A stretch of 64,000 nucleotides of DNA from a virus: IMG/VR virus record IMGVR_UViG_3300018079_000011, positions 1 through 64,000 of that record, one strand, 5' to 3'. The position numbers and the translations under genes were made by a program. Of the stretch, positions 16,175-41,784 are shown piece after piece. The number at the start of each line of letters is the position of its first letter. Position 1 is the first letter of the stretch. The notes under the pieces were generated by a model. The model was given only the letters and a program-made list of their open reading frames with translations. It made no database searches and was not told where the DNA came from.

Positions 16175-17263
16175 ATGTCTCACTTCACAGTAATGGTCCG
16201 AGTCCCGTTCGATACACAGGCCGACATCAAGGCAGCCGTGCGCGCCATGCTCATCCCATACAAGGAGTCGGGGTGCAGCGAAGATGACCCGCCGGAACTC
16301 CGAAAGCACCTGGAGTTCGAAGACATCGAGGACGAGTACGCCGAGAAGTACGCTGCCGGATCGTGCTCGATGATCCGCCTCGCCGATGGGAAGATGTTTT
16401 CGGCGTACGACAATCGCTTCAAGAAGCCATTCGACTTCAACCGCATGGGTGGCAGCGAATACGAGCACCCGCCGGGCAGCGAGAAGGTAGAGACGCCGTT
16501 GCGTGAGCGCTACGTGACCTTTGAAGAGTACATGGCAGACTACTGCGGATACACCGAGCGCGACAGCAAGGCGAAACGATACGGAAGTTGGCGCAACCCC
16601 AACCAGAAGTGGGACTGGTACCAGATCGGTGGGCGATGGACAGGATATCTGCCGCTGAAGTCAGGGGCCGCCGGCGCCAGCGGCGAACCAGGCCTGATGA
16701 CCAAGGCAAATGCGGATCGCACGAAGGCGGATATCTGCCGGATCTCAGACGTCGACTTCGACCGCGTGGCCATTGACAGCCGGGTCGCTGCCGAAGAGTT
16801 CTGGACAGAGTGGCAGCGGTTCTGTGACGGCGCCGAGTTCCCCGCCTTCGACGGACCGCGCAACAAGGCGCTGAGCCTCGGACTGCTCTCGTGCAAGGAC
16901 GCCGACGAACTGACTGGCTCCGAGTGGAAGGCGGTCAAGTGGTCGCGGCAAATCAAGCCGGGCGTCGACCGCTTCGACGTCCTCGTGGACATCGCGCGGG
17001 AAGACTTCTTCGCGAAGTACACCAATGCGTTCTGCTCGGTCAAAACGTGGGCGTACCTCGACGCCACCGGGTGGAGCGAGCCAGGAAAGATTGGATGGTG
17101 GGCATGTAGCAGCGAGTTCGATGAGAGCGCGTACATGCCGCTCTACGAGGCCGGAGGCATGGCGCTGTCGAACGCGTTCTCCGACCTGGAAGACTACCGG
17201 GCAGGACGCGTGCCAGAGCCGGCCGTGGTGCCCGGCTCTCTACCGGATGGGCCGGATTTGTGA
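16175..17263 (+). CDS. Phage protein of unknown function (MSHFTV family)
   Basis: A 362-residue protein with AAGGAA site and ATG at 16175. It starts MSHFTVMVRVPFDTQADIKA and contains NPNQKWDWYQIGGRWTGYLP near residue 145, a conserved motif of a widespread phage family of unknown role. An acidic Cys-containing segment and a Trp-rich C-terminal half (WAYLDATGWSEPGKIGWWAC) follow. No catalytic site can be named. Confidence 0.6.
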   Translation: MSHFTVMVRVPFDTQADIKAAVRAMLIPYKESGCSEDDPPELRKHLEFEDIEDEYAEKYAAGSCSMIRLADGKMFSAYDNRFKKPFDFNRMGGSEYEHPPGSEKVETPLRERYVTFEEYMADYCGYTERDSKAKRYGSWRNPNQKWDWYQIGGRWTGYLPLKSGAAGASGEPGLMTKANADRTKADICRISDVDFDRVAIDSRVAAEEFWTEWQRFCDGAEFPAFDGPRNKALSLGLLSCKDADELTGSEWKAVKWSRQIKPGVDRFDVLVDIAREDFFAKYTNAFCSVKTWAYLDATGWSEPGKIGWWACSSEFDESAYMPLYEAGGMALSNAFSDLEDYRAGRVPEPAVVPGSLPDGPDL

Positions 17264-17535
17264 CGACCATGCACTGTAAGTTTTGCGCGCGCACCGACGA
17301 GCACATTCACGCACGCACGGTTGGCGGCGGGCTGGGGCGTGTGTTTCCCGAGAATGCGCCCGAGACCATCCACTGGGGTCTCTCGTCTCCAGGAAACTCC
17401 GCGCTGTGCGGTGCCGATACTGGTTCTCGGTGGGCGACGATTCGACTAATCAACTGCCAGTTCTGCATAAACATCATCGACCTGCACTTGCGTGCCAAGC
17501 CGGCGAAGCGGGCGGGGGAGAAGGCGGGCGGGTGA
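17260..17535 (+). CDS. Small protein with two Cys pairs
   Basis: A 91-residue protein, GTG start overlapping the prior stop. CKFC near the start and CQFC near residue 65 frame a segment ending in a basic tail (RAKPAKRAGEKAGG). A likely zinc-bound fold. It overlaps the next, TGT-like, gene by 4 bases, so the two may be co-translated. Confidence 0.55.
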   Translation: MTTMHCKFCARTDEHIHARTVGGGLGRVFPENAPETIHWGLSSPGNSALCGADTGSRWATIRLINCQFCINIIDLHLRAKPAKRAGEKAGG

Positions 17536-18173
17536 TAGTCATGCCCGCCAATCAGACGAACGTGGAGTTCGGCTTTCTGGCCGGGCGCTACCCGGGCGCG
17601 CTCGGCCACCTCTACTCGCCCGGCGCCCACACCGGACCGCATCACTTCTTCCCCTACGCCCTCGATAACGGGGCCTACTCGGCATGGTCGAAGAATCTGG
17701 ACTTCGACGTGGACGCTTGGCGACGTCACCTTGACTGGGGCTCGCGACAGCGGCAGCGCCCGCTCTGGGCCGTCGTCCCCGACTTCGTTGCCAGCCATGA
17801 CCTGACGCTTGAGCGCTGGCACATGTACGTCGGCGAGGTGCGCTCGCGCGGGATGCGGCCAGCGTTCGCGGTGCAGAACGGCGCGACGTTCGATGCCGCG
17901 CCCGACGACGAGTGCATGCTGTTTATCGGCGGCACCGACGAATTCAAGGATCCTGCGATTGCCCCATGGTGCGCGCGTTTTCCCGGCCGCGTTCACGTGG
18001 GGCGTGTGAACCGCAAGAAACGCCTGTGGGCGTGCTACGAGGCCGGCGCGGTTTCTGTCGACGGTACCGGCTGGTACCACGTTAACAATGGCCAGCGCGC
18101 CGAGCTCGTTGATTTTATCCAACGCACCCATGGAAAGGATCGCCCACGTGCTGACTATCTCGCGGCGGTATGA
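17532..18173 (+). CDS. DpdA / tRNA-guanine transglycosylase-like protein
   Basis: A 213-residue TIM-barrel-like protein related to queuine tRNA-ribosyltransferase. Key pieces: FPYALDNGAYSAW near 45, AVVPDFVASHDLTLERW near 90, AFAVQNG near 120, MLFIGGTDEFKD near 135, HVGRVNRKKRLW near 160 and AVSVDGTGW near 180, with Asp residues where the catalytic aspartates of TGT/DpdA lie. It is much shorter than bacterial Tgt and fits phage DpdA proteins that swap guanine for 7-deazaguanine in DNA. Start is GTG 17532 or ATG 17541. The next gene is QueD, a preQ0 pathway enzyme, which supports the call. Confidence 0.65.
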   Translation: MIVMPANQTNVEFGFLAGRYPGALGHLYSPGAHTGPHHFFPYALDNGAYSAWSKNLDFDVDAWRRHLDWGSRQRQRPLWAVVPDFVASHDLTLERWHMYVGEVRSRGMRPAFAVQNGATFDAAPDDECMLFIGGTDEFKDPAIAPWCARFPGRVHVGRVNRKKRLWACYEAGAVSVDGTGWYHVNNGQRAELVDFIQRTHGKDRPRADYLAAV

Positions 18174-18594
18174 TCTCGAAGTCGCGCACCACCTGACGGC
18201 CGGAGTGCCCGATGGGCACAAGTGCCGGCGCCTGCACGGCCATCGGTACGAGTTGACCATCTGGGTCGGCGGCCCGTTCGGACATCACGGGATGCTGGTC
18301 GAGTATGCCGACCTCGATCGCGTCGTCATGCCGGTGCTCAAGTTGCTTGACCACCACGACGCGAACTCTCTGAGCGAGCGCTGCTCGACGTCAGAAGCAG
18401 AGTGGGTGTCGGCGAATCCGACCGTCGAATACTTGGCGCTCTGGCTGGCGGCGCGACTCGTCGGCATCGTCGCGTCGGCGGTCCCTGATCGGAAATTGCG
18501 ACTGGAGCGGCTGCGACTTCAGGAAGACGCGCAGTCGGCTGCGGAGTGGAGTCTCGCCACCGCCGAGCCGCAGAAGGGAGGGGACCGTGGGTAG
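18148..18594 (+). CDS. queD: QueD: 6-carboxytetrahydropterin synthase family
   Basis: Converts dihydroneopterin triphosphate to 6-carboxytetrahydropterin in preQ0 synthesis. Zinc histidines are in EVAHHLTAG and LHGHRYELT, with the catalytic Cys just before (HKCRRLHGH). LVEYADLDRVV, the DHHDAN catalytic segment and NPTVEYLALWLAARL complete the family pattern. GTG at 18148 follows AAAGGA at suitable distance; ATG at 18130 is an alternative. Either start overlaps the TGT-like gene, implying joint expression. The ~148 residues slightly exceed typical QueD because of a charged C-terminal tail. Confidence 0.82.
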   Translation: MLTISRRYDLEVAHHLTAGVPDGHKCRRLHGHRYELTIWVGGPFGHHGMLVEYADLDRVVMPVLKLLDHHDANSLSERCSTSEAEWVSANPTVEYLALWLAARLVGIVASAVPDRKLRLERLRLQEDAQSAAEWSLATAEPQKGGDRG

Positions 18595-19096
18595 CTTCGA
18601 CAAACTCAGGTCGTTCGCCGAGTCACGAGAATCAAGCGCGGCGGTGATTCGCGGCGGATTGACATACGGCGATGCGCGCGAACTGCTCGCGATGTTCCAG
18701 GACCCATCCCTCGCCGCCGACATCGCCTCGCTCAAGGACGAGAACTTCCGCGCCGCCATGGACAAGGGCAAGGAGATGGCGGGAGAGGTGTTCAGGTTGC
18801 GGGATGAGTTGAGGGACGAGCGGGCCAGGATAATCTGGCTCATAGACGAGGCGGCGGCCGAGCTGGAAGAGACCCGCAAGGAGCGCGACGAGGCGCTGGC
18901 CAGCGAGCGCGAGGCCATCCGCGCCATGGCCGAGAACGGCAAGGAGTTGCTGGCCGCGCGGGCCGACATGGAGCGCCTGCGGGCCGCTCTCGGGCGATGG
19001 GCGACCATCCCTCTTAGCGACCATCAGGCAGGCTGTGGCTGCCGAGGCTGCGAGACCGACGCTCTTCTGAGCCCCGTCGGTAAGGGAAGTAAATGA
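18587..19096 (+). CDS. Coiled-coil protein with C-terminal Cys cluster
   Basis: A 169-residue protein, GTG start after AGGGAGGGGACC. Residues about 50-140 form a long charged helix (EVFRLRDELRDERARIIWLI, ETRKERDEALASEREAIRAM). The end carries CGCRGCE. Probably an oligomeric coiled coil; no known function. Confidence 0.55.
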   Translation: MGSFDKLRSFAESRESSAAVIRGGLTYGDARELLAMFQDPSLAADIASLKDENFRAAMDKGKEMAGEVFRLRDELRDERARIIWLIDEAAAELEETRKERDEALASEREAIRAMAENGKELLAARADMERLRAALGRWATIPLSDHQAGCGCRGCETDALLSPVGKGSK

Positions 19097-19605
19097 GAGG
19101 CGTTCTCTTTCTCGACTTCGACGGCGTCCTCAACAATCGCTTGGACCGGATGATTGAACCGTCTGGCTGGAACTATCTCGACCAGAAGCGCGTTGAGCGG
19201 GTAAACTGCATCGCCGAGCGGACCGGCTGCGCGATCGTGGTCAGTTCGAGTTGGCGCAAAGAGAACGAACAGACGCCGCGCACTCACGTCGCCGATCTGC
19301 TCGACAAGGCCGGCGCCACCTTCCCGGTGCTCGACGTGACGCCGTTTCGTGCCGACCACGACCATCGGTGCCGCGGGCAAGGCCACGCCGACGAGTGTGG
19401 CCGTGGCCATGAGATCCAAGCGTGGCTGGATGACCATGGATGGACCGGGCCGACGGCCATCGTCGACGACGGCGCAGACATGGGCCACCTGCTGCCGTAC
19501 CTCGTGCAGACCAGCGACGAGACGGGGCTACTGGACGAGCACGTTGAGAGGATTTGCGCGCTGCTGACCACGCCGCCAATGAGAGAGGAGAAGGATCGTG
19601 GCTGA
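19093..19605 (+). CDS. HAD-superfamily phosphatase-like protein
   Basis: A 170-residue protein. The HAD nucleophile motif is plain, VLFLDFDGVLNNR, with IVVSSSWRK supplying motif II (Ser) and a late AIVDDGADM acidic pair. This matches the small HAD family found in RNA-repair and phage proteins. Substrate unknown; near the QueD and MazG-like genes, a nucleotide phosphatase role is plausible. It overlaps genes on both sides. Confidence 0.7.
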   Translation: MRGVLFLDFDGVLNNRLDRMIEPSGWNYLDQKRVERVNCIAERTGCAIVVSSSWRKENEQTPRTHVADLLDKAGATFPVLDVTPFRADHDHRCRGQGHADECGRGHEIQAWLDDHGWTGPTAIVDDGADMGHLLPYLVQTSDETGLLDEHVERICALLTTPPMREEKDRG

Positions 19606-20900: not shown

Positions 20901-21171
20901 CCGCGAGAACGTAGAGCTCGGCTGGCTGGAATGGAAGCGACGACTCCGGGAGGAGCGTCAGTATCGCCGCCGCATCGAGGCCGAGCAGGCCAAGTTCCGC
21001 GAGGTCGAGATCGCTGCCCGCGAATTCATCCTCGCGCTCGACCGCGACCTGGAGCGCGGCCCCGCGTTCCTCAGTTACGTTCACCCGGATTGGGCGTCGA
21101 TCGGGCGCCTACGCGCGGCTCTCGGTATCCCGCCGAGGAAGCAGCGACGGGCGAAGAAGAGCAGCCCATGA
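20884..21171 (+). CDS. Charged coiled-coil protein
   Basis: A 95-residue protein starting at ATG 20884 (ATG 20881 also in frame). ELGWLEWKRRLREERQYRRR and IEAEQAKFREVEIAAREFIL form a strongly charged helix, and the end is Lys/Arg-rich (PPRKQRRAKKSSP). No family recognised. Confidence 0.5.
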   Translation: MAVKADRENVELGWLEWKRRLREERQYRRRIEAEQAKFREVEIAAREFILALDRDLERGPAFLSYVHPDWASIGRLRAALGIPPRKQRRAKKSSP

Positions 21172-21773
21172 AGCCGATCCTTGCCGACCTCGGACTTGTC
21201 ACGCGCGGCGATGAGCGCGCATGGGCCGTCACCAGCCCGGACGATCGGTACCGCTACGTGCTTGGCAGAACGTGGGACGGATACTTCGATGACGGTCGTG
21301 ACTGGTGGGAACGCGACACGCCTCGTCCGCTGTGGGTATTCGGCATGCTGAACCCATCCGACGCGCGACACGACGTCGATGATCCAACGATCCGCAAATG
21401 CACCGGCCTCGCCAAGCGCGGCGGCGCCGGTGGCTACCTCGTGGTCAACATGCTGGCCTACTCAACGCCCGATCCGGCGGAGATGGTGCGCGCGTTTCGC
21501 TCCGGGGTGGATGTGCGCGGCGAGCACAACTATGCCGTGCTCGCATGGGCGCTTGGCGGGCCCACGATGCTGGGCCTGAACATCGCGGCGTGGGGCCGCA
21601 TTCCGCCGAAGCTTCGCTCGCTGGCCAGAGCTAGCACGGCACAGTTCCTGTGGTCACGGCCGCACTGCTACGGGCTGACGGCGGGAGGTGAGCCGCGCCG
21701 TCCGCTGATGCTCGCATACAACACTCCTCTGGTCCTGCTGAAGGACGCGAGACGCGCGCACGCGGTGCCGTGA
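21168..21773 (+). CDS. DUF1643 family protein
   Basis: A 201-residue protein; start overlaps the preceding stop. The family signature is clear: LWVFGMLNPSDARHDVDDPT then IRKCTGLAKRGGAGGYLVVN (near residues 55-95), with MLAYSTPD and later PHCYGLTAGGEPRRPLMLAY. DUF1643 proteins are common in phages and mobile islands; the function is unknown. Confidence 0.8.
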   Translation: MKPILADLGLVTRGDERAWAVTSPDDRYRYVLGRTWDGYFDDGRDWWERDTPRPLWVFGMLNPSDARHDVDDPTIRKCTGLAKRGGAGGYLVVNMLAYSTPDPAEMVRAFRSGVDVRGEHNYAVLAWALGGPTMLGLNIAAWGRIPPKLRSLARASTAQFLWSRPHCYGLTAGGEPRRPLMLAYNTPLVLLKDARRAHAVP

Positions 21774-25565: not shown

Positions 25566-26726
25566 ATGCCCCGTGTGTGCGGGGCGCGCGACCCCGGTCA
25601 TTGCCGGAGGCGCGTCTTTTTGGGTGAAGTTGACCGGGACCTGGTCGAAGCGATCGCGGCTCGCCTGCAGCAAGGCCGGCCATCGCCGCTCATGTCGGCG
25701 CTGTGGGACGGATTCTGGGGTGCCATAGGTGCCCAGCATCGATCGAGTCGCGACACCAAGGGGCAATGGGCGCGGCTGTGTCTGTTCAAGTTGCCGGATG
25801 GCCGAAACCTCGCCGAACTTCATGCGAGCGAGGTGAGCGTCGACTTCGTCCTGGCCTACCGGGATTGGCGACTCAGGCAGATCACCAGACGAGACAAAGC
25901 GCCAAGCCCTGCGACCGTGAACCGCGAGACCGATCGGCTGCGCGCCGTTCTGAACTGGGCCGCGAAGCACCGGCTCATCGATCGCAACCCTATGAGCGCG
26001 GTGACGGCGCTCCCTGAGGACAACGTCAAGCAGACCAAGATCAGAAGCGAGGCCGAGTTCGAGCAACTGCTGCGCGCGTGCGACGAGGTACACCCGCTGC
26101 TGCGCCCGCTCTGCCTGGCCTACATGGACGCTGGCTTGCGACGACTCGAGGCCCAGCGACTACGCTGGGACGAACTCGAAGCGAAAGACAACGGCGGCGG
26201 ACGTGCGCGACTCGCCGGCAAGCGCACCAAGAACAAATTGCCGCGGCAGCCGCACTTGACCATACGAACGTTCGAGGCATTGATGGCGATCCCGCGAGTG
26301 AGCGAGTGGGTCTTCGCCAACGCCAGGGTGTTCGCGGGAGGGCGCAAAGGGCGCCACTACGGTCGGCCATACAGCCCGTTTCACCTTCATCGCCTGTTCC
26401 AGAAGGCTGTGCAACTCTCCGGTTTGCATGGCGTGGAAGGCGAATCGATCACGTGGCACGTGCTCCGCCACTCCTTCGCGTATCGTGCGCGACGCCTGTG
26501 GAAATGGAGCGAACTGGTCATCATGGCTCAGGGCGGATGGAAGACGCGCAAGGCGTTCGAGCGTTATGGAATCGTCGACGACGACGAGCTCAACGAAGCG
26601 ATGGTGGATGCGGAAGCGCGGATCGCTGCGGATCGAATCGCTCTCACGAGCGAGCCACGAAAACCGCCGCAAAGGATTTCGCCAGTCACCGCCACCGTCG
26701 GGATTTCGACGACGACTAGTAGGTAG
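25566..26726 (+). CDS. int: Tyrosine recombinase (phage integrase)
   Basis: A ~386-residue integrase (GTG at 25539 is an alternative start). SAM-like core-binding part at about 55-130. Catalytic pieces: Arg I in DAGLRRLEAQRLRWDE near 195, a Lys in the AGKRTKNKLPRQP hairpin, ITWHVLRHSFAYRARR (His and Arg II) near 310, and GGWKTRKAFERYGIV with the Tyr nucleophile near 345. The third His position reads Q-G-G-W, so the usual LGH is replaced. It points to a tRNA-Thr gene 315 bases downstream, the expected attachment site. Confidence 0.9.
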   Translation: MPRVCGARDPGHCRRRVFLGEVDRDLVEAIAARLQQGRPSPLMSALWDGFWGAIGAQHRSSRDTKGQWARLCLFKLPDGRNLAELHASEVSVDFVLAYRDWRLRQITRRDKAPSPATVNRETDRLRAVLNWAAKHRLIDRNPMSAVTALPEDNVKQTKIRSEAEFEQLLRACDEVHPLLRPLCLAYMDAGLRRLEAQRLRWDELEAKDNGGGRARLAGKRTKNKLPRQPHLTIRTFEALMAIPRVSEWVFANARVFAGGRKGRHYGRPYSPFHLHRLFQKAVQLSGLHGVEGESITWHVLRHSFAYRARRLWKWSELVIMAQGGWKTRKAFERYGIVDDDELNEAMVDAEARIAADRIALTSEPRKPPQRISPVTATVGISTTTSR

Positions 26727-27041
26727 GTGAATTTTCTTTCTTGACACTTGGTCACGTCCGGGCGCACAAACAGGTGGCCAGGACTTGACGATGGGAAATA
26801 ATCAATTCACCCCGTTTGCAGCTCCGCTTCCCACTCGGCGGCGGTCCTGGCAGATGACGTTCGCGTCGAGCCGCAGACGGGGCCTTTCGCGGTAGGTATC
26901 CGGCAGCCAGGAGTCCGGTCGATGTCACAGGGCGGGAGCGAACGGTTTACGAAACCTTGCACAACACGTAGAGCAGAGTCGAATGTAAGCGGTGTCGTCG
27001 CCGGTGATGACGCGGCTGACATTGTAGGCGGCGAGAAAGAG
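26727..27041. other. Non-coding int-tRNA spacer, candidate attP arm region
   Basis: A 315-base stretch without a convincing gene. GGTGAATT (26726-26733) and AATTCACC (26804-26811) form an inverted repeat bracketing about 85 bases, in the only locally AT-rich part. A TTGACA (26741-26746) has no acceptable -10. Placement between the integrase end and the 3' end of a tRNA gene suits arm sites of attP. Confidence 0.4.
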
Positions 27042-27113
27042 AGCCGGAGCGGGGGATTGAACCCCGGGCCCCCGCTTTACGAAAGCGGTGCTCTACCACT
27101 GAGCTACTCCGGC
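27042..27113 (-). tRNA. tRNA-Thr (anticodon CGT)
   Basis: Read on the minus strand it folds as a complete cloverleaf of 72 bases: acceptor GCCGGAG/CTCCGGC with discriminator T, D-stem GCTC/GAGC, anticodon stem CCGCT/AGCGG with loop TTCGTAA, T-arm CGGGG-TTCAATC-CCCCG. Anticodon CGT reads ACG (Thr). CCA is not encoded. Its 3' end faces the integrase. Either a phage-borne tRNA or the attachment site. Confidence 0.92.
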
Positions 27114-33167: not shown

Positions 33168-33365
33168 ATGACCGCGCCGCCGCTCCGCATTTCCGAAATC
33201 CCCGCCACACAGCGCGCCGCCTTGGCCTGGCGCCTTCGCAACGCCATCGCCAACGCCGACGGCAAAGGCGCTCTCGAACCGGGGCCGGGGCGGTGGCTCA
33301 CGAAACACACGGCGTTGAGGGGGCATGTGCTGATGCTGATCTCTGAGATGGAGGTGGGGGAGTGA
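33168..33365 (+). CDS. Small helical protein
   Basis: A 65-residue protein (MTAPPLRISEIPATQRAALA, WRLRNAIANADGKGA). Overlaps the helicase-methyltransferase gene's start. Function unknown; perhaps a modulator of that enzyme by position. Confidence 0.45.
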   Translation: MTAPPLRISEIPATQRAALAWRLRNAIANADGKGALEPGPGRWLTKHTALRGHVLMLISEMEVGE

Positions 33366-35620
33366 TGGGCGCGCAAGCATACGCAGACTTCATCGCGTCG
33401 AAGACGCCTGCGGCGATATCGTTCGGTCGCGAACCAGACGAACTTCCGTCGATCTTCTGGCGCTTTCAGAGAGCGATCGTCGAATGGGCCATCCGCCGTG
33501 GGCGCGCGGCTCTTTTCGCCGACTGCGGTCTTGGAAAGACCCTCATGCAGGTGGAATGGGCGAGACAGAGCGGCGGGCGCGTTCTTATCGTCGCCCCGCT
33601 GGCTGTCGCCGAGCAAACCATCGCAGAGGCGCGCGACAAACTGGGCGTGCCGATTCGCAAGGTCGCCGATCCATCAGGATTGCCTGGAATCGAGGTTACT
33701 AATTACGAAAAGCTCCACCGCTTTGTCGGGGCGCCTTACGACGCGATCGTGCTCGATGAATCTAGCATCCTGAAGAGTCTTGATGGAAAGACGCGAACGC
33801 TGCTGCTGAAAGAGTTCACGGACATTCCGCGGCGACTCTGCTGCACGGCAACTCCAGCGCCAAACGACCTGGCAGAACTCGCGAACCATGCCGAGTTCCT
33901 GGGCGTCATGCCGCGGGCCGAAATGCTCGCCTCGTTCTTCGTTCACGACAACGATGGCAAGGCCGCGGGTGGATGGCGACTCAAGGGTCACGCCGAGGAG
34001 TCCTTTTGGCGATGGGTGGCCAAGTGGGCGGTCTACGTGCGTCGACCGTCTGATCTGGGGTTCGATGACGCTGGCCTTGAGCTCCCCCCGTTGACCATCA
34101 GCGAAGACGTCGTACGGGCCGACTGGAAGCCAGATGGCATGTTGTTCGCGGCCGGCCTTGGTGGCATCGAGTCGCGGTCTGCGATGCGGAGGAGCACGCT
34201 CGGCGCGCGCGTGAAGCGCGCGGCGGAGATCATCAAAGAATCATGGCAACAAAGAAGCGCCCGCCGGGCACCGCCAAGCGGTACTACGCAAAGCACCGTT
34301 CCCCAATGGCTCGTATGGGTGAAGTTGAACGCCGAAGAGGAGGCAATGAAGTCGGCGCTCGGCGACGACGCGGTCGTTATTAGCGGCCAGGACAACGACG
34401 AAACCAAGCTCGCGAAGGAACTCTCCTGGCGCAGAGGTGAGGTCTCCGTGTTGATTACAAAGCCGGAGATCTACTCCATGGGCGTCAACTGGCAGCACTG
34501 CCATCGGATGCTGTTTCTCGGTATCGGCGACAGCTTCGAACAGTACTACCAGTCAATCAGACGCTGCTGGCGATTCGGTCAAAGGAATCCCGTCGAGGCG
34601 CTGATCGTCGTCAGCGAAGCGGAACTGGAGATCGCGGAAAACGTCCGCCGCAAGGAGGCCGACGCCGCTCGTCTGGCCGACGGCGTGGTGGCCATGTCAC
34701 GGGAGGCAATGATGGAAGAAATCGGAGTCAGCGCGGACTCTGCGCGAGTTCAGTACGCGACGGCTGACGAGTCAGGCAAGGGATGGCGAATGCTCATGGG
34801 GGACTGCGTGGAGCGCGTTCACGACGTGGCTGACGCCTCGGTCGGGTTGTCCGTGTTCTCGCCGCCGTTCGCGAGCCTGTACACGTACAGCGCAAGCGAG
34901 CGAGACATGGGCAACTCAAAGGACTATGACCAATTCTTCGCGCACTTCGGGTTTCTGATCCCGGAGTTGCTCCGAGTCACAATCCCGGGTCGCCGATGCT
35001 GCGTTCACGTCCAGCAGGTAACGACCACAAAGGCGACTCACGGCGTGATCGGCTGGCGCGACTTCCGCGCCGACACCGTGCGCGCCTTTGTTGCCGCTGG
35101 GTGGGTCTACGATGGCGAGGTCGTGATCGACAAGGACCCTCAGGCGCAGGCGATTCGAACGAAGTCGAAGGCGCTGATGTTCGTCCAGAAGGACAAGGAC
35201 TCGTCGTGGTCGCGTCCGGCGATGGCCGACTACATCTTGCTGTTTCGCCACCCTGGCGATAACCCGATCCCGGTCAAGACCGACGTCAGTAACGAGGAGT
35301 GGATTCGCTGGGCGCGCCCGGTTTGGTACGGCATTCGCGAGTCAGAGACTCTCAACGCCGCGGAAGCGCGATCTGAGAAGGATGAGAAACACATCTGTCC
35401 GCTTCAACTCGAGACCATTGAGCGGTGCGTGCGGCTGTGGACGAACCCGGGAGAGACAGTGTTCTCTCCATTCGGCGGGATTGGGTCGGAGGGGTACGTG
35501 GCGCTCCAGCATGAGCGGCAATACGTGGGGATCGAACTCAAGCCGGAATATTGGCGCCAAGCGGTCTCGAACTTAAAGAAGGCGCGGAAGCAACTCGGGC
35601 TGTTCGGTGGGGCCGCATGA
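33362..35620 (+). CDS. SNF2-like helicase fused to beta-class DNA methyltransferase
   Basis: A 752-residue fusion. Residues ~30-470 are a superfamily 2 helicase: ALFADCGLGKTLMQ (Walker A), AIVLDESSIL (DExx box), CCTATPAPND (motif III), YYQSIRRCWRFGQRNPV (motif VI, SNF2-type). Residues ~480-750 are a methyltransferase in beta order: SVFSPPFASLYTYS (catalytic motif IV, SPPF) then GETVFSPFGGIGSEGYVALQ (AdoMet motif I), so N4-cytosine or N6-adenine. No nuclease is seen. Start GTG 33362 or ATG 33365. Similar fusions occur in phages and the P1 Dar proteins. Confidence 0.85.
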   Translation: MMGAQAYADFIASKTPAAISFGREPDELPSIFWRFQRAIVEWAIRRGRAALFADCGLGKTLMQVEWARQSGGRVLIVAPLAVAEQTIAEARDKLGVPIRKVADPSGLPGIEVTNYEKLHRFVGAPYDAIVLDESSILKSLDGKTRTLLLKEFTDIPRRLCCTATPAPNDLAELANHAEFLGVMPRAEMLASFFVHDNDGKAAGGWRLKGHAEESFWRWVAKWAVYVRRPSDLGFDDAGLELPPLTISEDVVRADWKPDGMLFAAGLGGIESRSAMRRSTLGARVKRAAEIIKESWQQRSARRAPPSGTTQSTVPQWLVWVKLNAEEEAMKSALGDDAVVISGQDNDETKLAKELSWRRGEVSVLITKPEIYSMGVNWQHCHRMLFLGIGDSFEQYYQSIRRCWRFGQRNPVEALIVVSEAELEIAENVRRKEADAARLADGVVAMSREAMMEEIGVSADSARVQYATADESGKGWRMLMGDCVERVHDVADASVGLSVFSPPFASLYTYSASERDMGNSKDYDQFFAHFGFLIPELLRVTIPGRRCCVHVQQVTTTKATHGVIGWRDFRADTVRAFVAAGWVYDGEVVIDKDPQAQAIRTKSKALMFVQKDKDSSWSRPAMADYILLFRHPGDNPIPVKTDVSNEEWIRWARPVWYGIRESETLNAAEARSEKDEKHICPLQLETIERCVRLWTNPGETVFSPFGGIGSEGYVALQHERQYVGIELKPEYWRQAVSNLKKARKQLGLFGGAA

Positions 35621-35871: not shown

Positions 35872-36197
35872 TGGCTCGCTCGCTCTCAAAAAAGCGGCGC
35901 TTCCACGTGCTCGCACGCTGCGGGTTTCGCTGCACTTACTGCGGTCGCTCGCCAAAGGTCGACGGCGTCTCCCTGGTCGTCGATCACGTTGTGGCGGTGG
36001 CAAACGGCGGCTCGAGCGATGACGACAACCTGACCGCGGCCTGCGAGGACTGCAACGCGGGTAAGGCAGACATGGGCTGCTATGCGTGCTGCCGCTTCGA
36101 CTGCCCGGCCGAGTCGGATCCGGACCATGTCGGTCCCTGCCCGGAGGTGGTCGCCTTTTTTGCGGCGCGCGCAGCCGCCGACGGGGACGGGAACTGA
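35871..36197 (+). CDS. HNH endonuclease
   Basis: A 108-residue protein: RFHVLARCGFRCTYCGRSPK, then VVDHVVAVANGGSSDDDNLT and AACEDCNAGKADMG give the complete HNH with two Cys pairs. The C-terminal CYACCRFDCP adds further Cys. Likely part of replication-associated or packaging nicking. Confidence 0.8.
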   Translation: MARSLSKKRRFHVLARCGFRCTYCGRSPKVDGVSLVVDHVVAVANGGSSDDDNLTAACEDCNAGKADMGCYACCRFDCPAESDPDHVGPCPEVVAFFAARAAADGDGN

Positions 36198-38639: not shown

Positions 38640-38917
38640 AAGACATCGGCCCCTTCGACCCGCTCACTCCCGCGCAGTTTCAATTCCAGGTTACCCGCCT
38701 CGTCTCCGGCCGCGAACATCTCAGCGTCGCCGAGGACGCCGTCATGGCGATCATGGGCAGCGCGCACGCCGGTCACCTGCGCGGCGACCTGATCGCATCC
38801 CGAGACATGGTTCGGGCAACGCGACAGGTGCTGCTGGTGCTCACGGAGCGACTCCGCATCATCGCCCCGCGCTCTCTCGCCGATGTCGTCGAGGGGCAGA
38901 GAAAGGATGAGACGTGA
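38636..38917 (+). CDS. Hypothetical helical protein
   Basis: A 93-residue protein (MKDIGPFDPLTPAQFQFQVT, MVRATRQVLLVLTERLRIIA). Overlaps neighbours by 4 bases. No family recognised. Confidence 0.5.
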   Translation: MKDIGPFDPLTPAQFQFQVTRLVSGREHLSVAEDAVMAIMGSAHAGHLRGDLIASRDMVRATRQVLLVLTERLRIIAPRSLADVVEGQRKDET

Positions 38918-39717
38918 AGCCACTGGTGATCTACCACGCCCAATGCCGCGACGGCTTCGGTGCCGCGTGGTGCATCTGGCGACGGTCCGCGAACGCTGAG
39001 TTTTTCCCAGCCACCCACGGCGCGCCGCCCCCCGATGTCACCGGACGCATGGTCTACATGGTCGATTTCTGCTATCCGCGCGATGTGCTCGAGCGAATGG
39101 CGGGTCGAGCGCATTCGATGCTGATCCTTGACCACCACAAGACCGCTGAGGAAGCGCTTCGGGGATTTTCCCGAGACAACGTGACAGTCGAGTTCGATAT
39201 GGGCAGGAGCGGCGCCGGGATGACGTGGGACCGCTTTTTTCCCCGCTCTCCTCGTCCGTGGCTCATCGACTACATCGAGGACCGCGACCTATGGAAACAC
39301 GCGCTTCCGAACGGGCCCGCTGTCAACGCATATATCGGAACGATCCGGTTCAACTTCGAGGACTACTACAAGGCGTCTCGCCTCGATGTAGACGAGGTCG
39401 CCAGGCTTGGTGTCGCAGTGGAGGACAAGATCCGCCGGTACGTGACCGAGGTGGCGGCGAACGCCCGTCGCATTGACTTCGAGGGACACAACGTTCCGAT
39501 CGTCAACGCTCCTCAGGTTGACATTTCGGAGTTGGTCGGATTCCTGGCTCAGGGCGAGGCGTTCGCAATGGGCTGGTGGATGCGATCAGACGGGATGGTC
39601 AGTTACTCGCTCCGCTCGAAAGGCGACGTCGACGTGTCGGCTATCGCGAAAAAATACGGCGGTGGCGGCCACAGGTCAGCGGCTGGATTTCAACTGAACA
39701 GGGTTCTGCTGCCATGA
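38914..39717 (+). CDS. DHH-family phosphoesterase (NrnA-like)
   Basis: A 267-residue protein. VIYHAQCRDGFGAAWCIWRR (metal motif I), MVDFCYPRDVL and LILDHHKTAEEALRG (DHH motif), MTWDRF...LIDYIEDRDLW, and the C-terminal DHHA1 motif KKYGGGGHRSAAGFQL. Members hydrolyse short oligonucleotides or cyclic nucleotides. In a phage it could recycle nanoRNA or cleave host signalling nucleotides, a possible anti-defence role. Confidence 0.85.
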   Translation: MKPLVIYHAQCRDGFGAAWCIWRRSANAEFFPATHGAPPPDVTGRMVYMVDFCYPRDVLERMAGRAHSMLILDHHKTAEEALRGFSRDNVTVEFDMGRSGAGMTWDRFFPRSPRPWLIDYIEDRDLWKHALPNGPAVNAYIGTIRFNFEDYYKASRLDVDEVARLGVAVEDKIRRYVTEVAANARRIDFEGHNVPIVNAPQVDISELVGFLAQGEAFAMGWWMRSDGMVSYSLRSKGDVDVSAIAKKYGGGGHRSAAGFQLNRVLLP

Positions 39718-40240: not shown

Positions 40241-40580
40241 GCAGCCGGCCTTTCCAAAACCACCCGCGCGGGTCCGAGACCAGCCGCATATGCTTGAGGC
40301 CAAGCAACTGCCATGCTGCGCCCCGGTCCCCGCGAGCTACCACAGGGGAGACGTCGAGGCGGATCACTCCGCACGCCACGGACTCGGCGTGAAATGCTCA
40401 GACGCCGACACGATTCCACTGTGCCGGCGGTGTCACCGCCACAAAACCGACCTCACCGGTCCGTTCCGCGGATGGCCGCCCGGGGTGCTCAGGGCATGGC
40501 TCGATGCTCAGGTCTCGGCCACGCTTGCGGCGCTGCTGGCCCGGCGGGCGGCGGCGGAGAGGGAGGCGGCTGGTGGGTAA
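40230..40580 (+). CDS. HNH-like zinc nuclease (DUF968-like)
   Basis: A 116-residue protein starting MSTEQPAFPKPPARVRDQPH at 40230. VEADHSARHGLGVKCSDADT IPLCRRCHRH is an HNH-like core with Cys pair, then GWPPGVLRAWLDAQVSA. Resembles the C-terminal domain of phage DUF968 proteins, implicated in recombination. It overlaps the DUF5131 gene by 8 bases. Confidence 0.6.
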   Translation: MSTEQPAFPKPPARVRDQPHMLEAKQLPCCAPVPASYHRGDVEADHSARHGLGVKCSDADTIPLCRRCHRHKTDLTGPFRGWPPGVLRAWLDAQVSATLAALLARRAAAEREAAGG

Positions 40581-41784
40581 AACGTCGATTCCGTGGACGG
40601 ACTACTCGTGGCCCGTGATCAACGGCTGTCGCCGCGCGAGTCCAGGCTGCGAAAACTGCTATAGCGAGCGACTCTCGTCTACGCGCCTATCGAAGACGGG
40701 AAAGTACGGCGGTCTCGCCGTCTTCGGGGACAACGGCCCACGATGGACCGGCGAGGCTCGTCTCTGGGAGCAGCATCTCGACATGCCGCTCAAGCTCCAG
40801 AAACCCTCGAAGATCTTCGTCTGCGACATGGGCGACCTGTTCTATGCGGGGGTCCCGAAGTCGTGGATCGATCGCGTGTGGGCGCGTATGCTGCTGTGTC
40901 CTCGCCACACTTTCCAGGTGTTGACGAAGCGCGTGCGCAGGATGCGCGAGTACCTGACGGACCCCGGCTTATACGAACGACTACTGCGCGTTGCCGACCA
41001 CGAGATCCGAGTGGCCCGGCCGAAGTTGACGGGAGTCGGCATCAGCAACCCGTCGCTCCATCCCGCGAAATGGATCTGGCTCGGCGTGAGCGTGGAGAAT
41101 CAGGAATGGGCAGACGACCGCATACCTGACTTGCTCGAGACTCCGGCGGCCGTTCGCTTCGTGTCGTACGAGCCCGCTATCGGCCCCGTCGACTTCGAGC
41201 GCATCCAATGGCCTGGTAAGCACAAGGTTGACGTCCTTCGCGGAGGAACGTGGGAACTCGGCGGCGGGTTCTGCAACCACAGCGACATGAGCACGATCGA
41301 CCAGGTGATCGTTGGCGGCGAAAGCGGGCCGGGGGCGAGGCCGTTCGACGTTGCGTGGGCGCGCGGCGTGATCCGGCAGTGTCGGGCGGCCGGGGTGAGC
41401 GCCTTTTGCAAGCAGCTCGGCGCGAACGTCCGCGACCGCAACGATGCCGGCTGGGATGGGATGGAGCCGGAGAGTTGGCCTGCCCACATCGATTGGCCAT
41501 CTCGTGTCGACGTCAACGGCTACCGCGAAGATCACCGGGGTGCGCATGTGCGCGTGCGGCTGTTCGACCGCAAGGGCGAGGACATGTCGGAGTGGCCATC
41601 CGACATCAGGGTTCGCGAATTCCCCCGCCCCGCCGCCCCACCCGCGGAGTCGACAGGTGTTGAACCGGCTCGTCGCAGTGGTCGATTGGGCATGGCGCGC
41701 CAGGGAGGGCGCTTCGTTGAGGACCCGTTCCGCGAGTACCGACGACCGCCGCCGATTCCGATGCGGCGAAAGGAGTCGCCGTGA
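40573..41784 (+). CDS. DUF5131 (Gp37/Gp68) radical-SAM-like phage protein
   Basis: A 403-residue protein, GTG start. TSIPWTDYSWPVINGCRRAS then PGCENCYSER (three-Cys cluster of the family), FVCDMGDLFYAGVPKSWIDR, TFQVLTKR, IWLGVSVENQEWADDRI, FVSYEPAIGPVDF, VIVGGESGPGARPFDVAWAR are all characteristic. Fe-S radical chemistry is predicted for the family; the substrate is unknown. The last ~80 residues are a disordered basic tail. Confidence 0.85.
   Translation: MGKTSIPWTDYSWPVINGCRRASPGCENCYSERLSSTRLSKTGKYGGLAVFGDNGPRWTGEARLWEQHLDMPLKLQKPSKIFVCDMGDLFYAGVPKSWIDRVWARMLLCPRHTFQVLTKRVRRMREYLTDPGLYERLLRVADHEIRVARPKLTGVGISNPSLHPAKWIWLGVSVENQEWADDRIPDLLETPAAVRFVSYEPAIGPVDFERIQWPGKHKVDVLRGGTWELGGGFCNHSDMSTIDQVIVGGESGPGARPFDVAWARGVIRQCRAAGVSAFCKQLGANVRDRNDAGWDGMEPESWPAHIDWPSRVDVNGYREDHRGAHVRVRLFDRKGEDMSEWPSDIRVREFPRPAAPPAESTGVEPARRSGRLGMARQGGRFVEDPFREYRRPPPIPMRRKESP

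Follow-up and report, generated by a model that had tools for sequence, protein, structure and literature searches.

The window analysed here is a stretch of 64,000 nucleotides from the virus record IMGVR_UViG_3300018079_000011, which comprises 70,101 bases (the last 6 kb being analysed separately from the window) and has a G+C content of about 65%. Genes for a terminase, a portal, a major head protein and an integrase are present and a tail sheath gene lies beyond the window end, a set that marks the virus as a tailed, probably temperate myovirus. The integrase gene (25620-26726) adjoins a tRNA-Thr(CGT) gene (27041-27113) on the opposite strand, which might serve a temperate phage as its attachment site. 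A megablast search of phage records with the locus described below returned zero matches, i.e., the phage collection holds no near relative at megablast sensitivity. Three genes make up this locus:

17260..17535, + strand: 91-aa Cys-containing ORF upstream of the short transglycosylase gene, its stop codon overlapping GTG 17532 as GTGA
17532..18173, + strand: putative short DpdA-like (TGT-superfamily) transglycosylase, assigned by phrog_15826, hhalign to phage DpdA and AlphaFold fold matches
18148..18594, + strand: predicted QueD (6-carboxytetrahydropterin synthase), assigned by PF01242, TIGR03367 (below cut-off), solved QueD structures and active-site residues

The short gene starts at GTG 17532 (213 aa) or ATG 17541 (210 aa). 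Overlap of start and stop codons as GTGA is a usual sign of gene coupling, and co-transcription of the 91-aa ORF with the transglycosylase gene is probable. For queD, the program listed ATG 18088 as the start; GTG 18148, the likeliest start because it is preceded by AAAGGA, or ATG 18130 is more likely to be the true one. The overlap of the two genes, already pointed out in the preliminary description, thus amounts more probably to 26-44 nt than to the 86 nt implied by ATG 18088. Elsewhere, the window encodes a 751-aa SNF2-type helicase fused to an N6/N4 DNA methyltransferase (33365-35620), possibly a DarB-like antirestriction protein, as well as proteins of the DUF5131 (40573-41784), DHHA1-domain (38914-39717), DUF1643 (21168-21773) and HAD_SAK_2 (19093-19605) types.

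Among the PHROGs, the short protein matches phrog_15826 ('unknown function'; E 2e-27) and, more weakly, phrog_887 (queuine tRNA-ribosyltransferase; E 7e-6). Pfam and NCBIfam hold no model for it, and a scan of 48 relatives yielded two stray matches only. The four motifs on which the preliminary description had based a TGT-like identity are all present, together with a fifth, VQNG, and their key residues are conserved as follows:

17664..17678, + strand: DNGAY, with Asp42; D42 and N43 invariant in 48 relatives; aligns with DSGAF of DpdA
17778..17801, + strand: PDFVASHD, with Asp81; P80 and D81 invariant; aligns with the D of LDGIGD in DpdA
17874..17882, + strand: Gln112-x-Gly (QNG/QDG); Q112 invariant, G114 nearly invariant
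17922..17936, + strand: FIGGT, with Gly130-Gly131; invariant; aligns with the GG of DpdA
18057..18074, + strand: VDGTGW, with Asp174; D174 invariant; aligns with CDSSSW of DpdA

Across these 48 diverse relatives the invariant positions are D42, N43, P80, D81, Q112, F128, G130, G131, K136, H152, R155 and D174. Within this set, we take Asp42 to be the counterpart of the general acid D102 of Z. mobilis TGT, Asp174 that of the covalent nucleophile D280, and Asp81, Gln112 and Gly130-Gly131 presumably those of the base-binding D156, Q203 and G229-G230 loop, respectively. The complement of two catalytic aspartates and base-binding Asp/Gln/Gly-Gly residues (D42, D81, Q112, G130-131, D174) is therefore complete. 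Additionally, a median dN/dS of 0.04 within clusters of the short family indicates strong purifying selection on the protein; given this and the invariant residues, the motifs did not arise by chance.

In line with these alignments, hhalign places the short-family profile on phage DpdA with 95% probability (E 3e-8, 161 columns), with DNGAY/DSGAF, PD/LD, GG/GG, VH/LH and DGTGW/DSSSW in register. The AlphaFold model of the short protein (pLDDT 92, pTM 0.88) finds DpdA (7ui4), many TGTs and Cap10 among its PDB fold matches, and actinophage queuine transferases among viral models. The E-values of some other TIM barrels, including tryptophan synthase, are comparable. TM-scores, however, favour the TGTs (mostly 0.52-0.59) and DpdA 7ui4 (0.55) over these, with tryptophan synthase chains at 0.40-0.47, so that unrelated barrels are not the best matches. 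A direct profile search of PDB chain sequences gave chance matches only, recovering neither TGT nor DpdA, and hhalign against E. coli Tgt alone gave no match, as expected for one divergent sequence; kinship with TGT and DpdA accordingly rests on phage DpdA, the motifs and the fold. Judged from its sequence and its model, the short protein is a predicted TIM-barrel member of the TGT superfamily with the TGT/DpdA active-site set.

A TGT-family fold would also suit a small tRNA-guanine transglycosylase, with QueD raising queuosine levels in host or phage tRNA and thereby aiding translation. Annotators of actinophages do write 'tRNA-guanine transglycosylase' for such genes, and lone viral queD genes are commonly taken as auxiliary metabolic genes. 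Bacterial tRNA TGT, however, carries a C-terminal zinc domain (CxCxxC...H), for which a protein of about 210 aa that ends about 36 residues past D174, in a family without any invariant Cys among the 48 relatives, has no room. Among profiles, phage DpdA matches it best, and the only tRNA of the phage is tRNA-Thr(CGT), which has no GUN anticodon. Moreover, the short gene accompanies yhhQ in phages of mycobacteria, hosts in which the Q pathway is missing (PMC6884629). A role in tRNA modification is thus unlikely.

The neighbouring QueD scores above the cut-off of the Pfam PTPS model PF01242 (1.4e-20) and matches solved QueD structures (8e-13), and its score against the NCBIfam equivalog TIGR03367 (2.2e-16, 60 bits) falls under the 89.25 cut-off. 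Numbered from ATG 18130, it keeps the three zinc histidines (H20, H36, H38), the catalytic C32, the Asp-His pair D74/H75 and the glutamate E132, all of them invariant among phage QueDs, in agreement with the full set of zinc and catalytic residues attributed to it before. Neither FolE nor QueC found a match in the full 70,101-base record, and searches for QueE/radical SAM proteins gave nothing above cut-off; a weak radical-SAM match at 35913-36002 lies below the cut-off and was excluded from the count of QueE. The absence of the three genes, first noticed in the window, therefore extends to the remainder of the record. A long DpdA is likewise absent from the full record.

The short family is widespread. 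At least 551 IMG/VR viral-contig stretches encode the protein, as confirmed among the matches listed, and the gene also occurs on 30 cellular-genome contigs. Cultured carriers comprise mycobacteriophages and phages of Arthrobacter, Rhodococcus, Vibrio, Escherichia, Erythrobacter and Synechococcus, and some of the actinophage members are already labelled 'DpdA-like'. The 122 sequences collected fall into 67 clusters at 80% identity, 38 of them viral. In a joint tree, the short family forms one side of a branch with 99% support, separate from 47 longer DpdA1-like rows, and the preliminary suggestion of DpdA2 as a candidate profile did not hold, since the short protein found no match in Vibrio phage nt-1 at E<=1 and hhalign to the nt-1 DpdA2 (YP_008125322) gave 0.1%. 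By sequence, then, the short proteins (phrog_15826) form a clade separate from both nt-1 DpdA2 and the ~300-aa DpdA1 line, and they are classed as DpdA-like in their mode of action rather than as members of either family. The Escherichia phages phiG7 (L007:11938-12530) and SHIN8 carry the gene in two overlapping frames, reflecting a frameshift, decay or sequencing error. On the Gemmataceae contigs L114 and L120, the short DpdA-like domain runs on into a C-terminal segment, which in one member matches an ISL3-transposase zinc ribbon and suggests a fusion.

Genes of the 7-deazaguanine pathway recur beside the short gene. In 25 of the 38 viral clusters, queD, queE, queC, folE, a long dpdA or yhhQ lies within 1.5 kb on the same strand, mostly in adjacent position; for many members on cellular contigs, and for some on viral contigs, no pathway gene was detected in the neighbourhood. 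When all neighbouring ORFs were clustered without prior families, the closest recurrent same-strand partners were QueD (15 clusters), QueC (10), QueE (10) and YhhQ (8), usually tens to a few hundred bases from the short gene. Most viral relatives possess no more than one or two pathway genes. Searches of the whole records of 25 relatives detected FolE in none, whereas matches above cut-off were obtained for QueC in 6 and for PTPS/QueD in 8, indicating that the single-gene sets are genuine as far as the contigs reach. The QueE assignments used here rest on QGEG, Cys and TGGEP motifs; the nt-1 gene L011:10416-11096, tried as a QueE seed, is not clearly a QueE and was removed from the later alignment A7. 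QueEs linked to short DpdA (L003:10591-11226, L016, L022, L024, L058, L064) show an odd Cys spacing, GC(S)V.C.IR..CDEP, as opposed to the canonical radical-SAM CxxxCxxC. Near the short dpdA of two unrelated phages, ReqiPine5 (L009:12505-13422) and R6L (L008:13343-14386), lies a PAPS-reductase-like ATP pyrophosphatase.

Partner genes switch repeatedly across the short-DpdA tree. Reconstruction of gains and losses on the family tree gave 10 changes for QueD, 6 each for QueC and YhhQ, and 5 for QueE, which implies many gains or losses of the pairing with pathway genes. The window itself illustrates this swapping of modules: the nearest relatives of its transglycosylase (L003 and L016) both have queE, not queD; the nearest relatives of its QueD are those of L140/L141 (66% identity), and the short DpdA next to these belongs to another lineage, 32% identical to that of the window. 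Such independent recurrence of the adjacency, with different and exchanged pathway genes, speaks against the view that the short TGT-like gene has a QueD of pterin or folate metabolism beside it by coincidence, the two being unconnected. The score of QueD below the strict equivalog cut-off (60 vs 89 bits) would fit that view, but QueD keeps C32, H75 and E132. Chance adjacency is extremely improbable.

Correspondingly, lone viral pathway genes were found beside DpdA-type genes. Of 32 lone viral queD loci, 17 have a short DpdA nearby and 12 a long one (29 have either), and the corresponding numbers for 19 lone viral queC loci are 12, 1 and 13, fractions that are biased upward, as linked genes were themselves part of the alignments used as queries. 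The pairing extends to the other type of transglycosylase: at several loci, among them L142, L145, L147, L155 and L157, a longer DpdA1-type gene comes within ~100 nt after a lone queD. Short and long DpdA also occur in the same phages: Sonali has both along with FolE, QueD, QueE and QueC, R29Z and phiG7 have both along with most or all of this set, and L087 also has both, implying that the two types are not simply interchangeable. This coexistence leaves room for a distinct role, e.g., that of a helper of another DNA modification (in guanine excision, or as a methyltransferase partner) rather than an insertase of 7-deazaguanine, and the window does encode a helicase-methyltransferase (33365-35620). 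Yet most viral records with the short gene retain a single preQ0 gene with no long DpdA detected nearby, and a helper role is very unlikely.

The recurrence of queC (10 clusters) raises another alternative, in which the short enzyme attaches 7-deazaguanine to a protein or binds conjugates of this kind, like Cap9/Cap10 of type IV CBASS, the Que gene supplying the base. The best fold matches include Cap10 (9ntn), which shows the highest identity of these (18-19%), and TGT-family enzymes can serve protein conjugation (PMC11996544). Nevertheless, neighbour-ORF clustering found no third conserved family adjoining the short gene that could be the substrate, no CD-NTase was seen in annotated phage neighbourhoods, and PADLOC gave no match. 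Furthermore, queD or queE alone is often the partner, which fits supply of a base and not a QueC-like ligase. Protein conjugation is therefore quite unlikely.

Homology to DpdA, conservation of the active site, purifying selection, repeated coupling and the absence of the other pathway genes are all observed. Our preferred reading, to which we assign a probability of roughly three in four, sees in the short protein a minimal DNA-guanine transglycosylase; its 7-deazaguanine would be made mostly by the host, and the phage itself would contribute a single step, here through QueD. We infer DNA as the substrate, preQ0 as the base, a contribution of the host and protection from restriction. The short DpdA would act on phage DNA through the TGT reaction: Asp174 would attack C1' of deoxyguanosine and, with the help of Asp42, displace guanine, after which Asp81, Gln112 and Gly130-131 would hold the free 7-deazaguanine (most likely preQ0) that attacks the covalent intermediate. 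The modified guanine would protect the phage DNA against restriction. QueD would boost the supply of 6-carboxytetrahydropterin, the remaining steps being carried out by host FolE, QueE and QueC, and the phage might generally contribute whichever step is limiting or missing. Relatives could meet the need for the base by means of QueE, QueC, two or three pathway genes, or the preQ0 transporter YhhQ. YhhQ partners fit the borrowing of a host-made base, given that YhhQ transports preQ0 and mycobacteria lack any Q genes (PMC6884629). A precedent for such borrowing is phage MED16, which has dpdA alone and yet contains dADG in its DNA (PMC8306585).

The suggestion in the preliminary description that the DpdA-like/QueD pair points to 7-deazaguanine DNA modification is thus supported by neighbourhoods dominated by queD, queE, queC and yhhQ, the modification itself being the inferred part; its idea of a reduced pathway borrowing host enzymes is supported by the one or two pathway genes of most viral relatives and from the absence of FolE from all 25 whole records. 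Occurrence of the same small enzyme with a varying pathway gene in hundreds of uncultured viruses suggests a common, stripped-down disguise of phage DNA. An unlikely variant is that the short enzymes make up a subfamily not yet described, which differs from known DpdA in its target or in the base it inserts; for instance, where a phage also has a long DpdA, they may recognize a second sequence motif or insert a second 7-deazaguanine, or they may have a non-DNA target such as a protein, and the single partner gene (queD, queE or queC) may then set the intermediate that is used.

Lone viral queD, queE and queC genes are usually read as auxiliary metabolic genes. Most of the lone viral queD and queC loci sampled here adjoin a DNA-transglycosylase-like gene, so many of them may belong to DNA-modification systems. 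The short family has itself gone largely unannotated, having no Pfam model and a PHROG of 'unknown function'. If the minimal-transglycosylase reading is true, these proteins would be among the smallest 7-deazaguanine insertases, which would make them convenient for studying how DNA is recognized, and guanine modification would reach further among uncultured phages than is known at present.

Phage DpdA of the 9g/CAjan type (DpdA1, phrog_887), of the enzymes that exchange guanine for a 7-deazaguanine in phage DNA, shares with the short protein a TGT-superfamily barrel, the same order of motifs and adjoining preQ0 genes. In contrast to DpdA1, the short protein has ~210 aa instead of ~265-300 aa, belongs to a separate clade (99% branch support), finds its main match in phrog_15826 rather than phrog_887, and is usually accompanied by one or two pathway genes, not four. 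The actinophage 'DpdA-like tRNA-guanine transglycosylase' (Phegasus gp54, Aoka gp40, Sonali gp81; ReqiPine5 gp03) is of the same family, with ~26-33% identity and the same invariant residues, although these members pair with YhhQ or adjoin a complete pathway, not a single queD as in the window. For DpdA3 and DpdA4 as defined by Cui et al. (2023), the comparison covered Campylobacter phage CP220 and HVTV-1, of which the former gave a weak match and the latter none. The 263-aa TGT-like protein of CP220, which may be the DpdA3 of that study, has DNS..F, VPDALGD..AT and VQG motifs in common with the short family and gives a weak profile match, but belongs to another PHROG (phrog_19058; hhalign probability 44%). 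DpdA2 of Vibrio phage nt-1 (phrog_10773) resembles the short protein in its DpdA role and nearby preQ0 genes (PMC6884629), whereas it has 464 aa and no detectable sequence relation to it. Two modified motifs have been reported for CAjan (PMC8306585), for which the short enzyme was considered and dismissed as a cause, since CAjan lacks the short gene. Cap10 of type IV CBASS shares the TGT-family fold match but works in protein conjugation with the QueC-like Cap9 and a CD-NTase, neighbours that do not recur beside the short gene.
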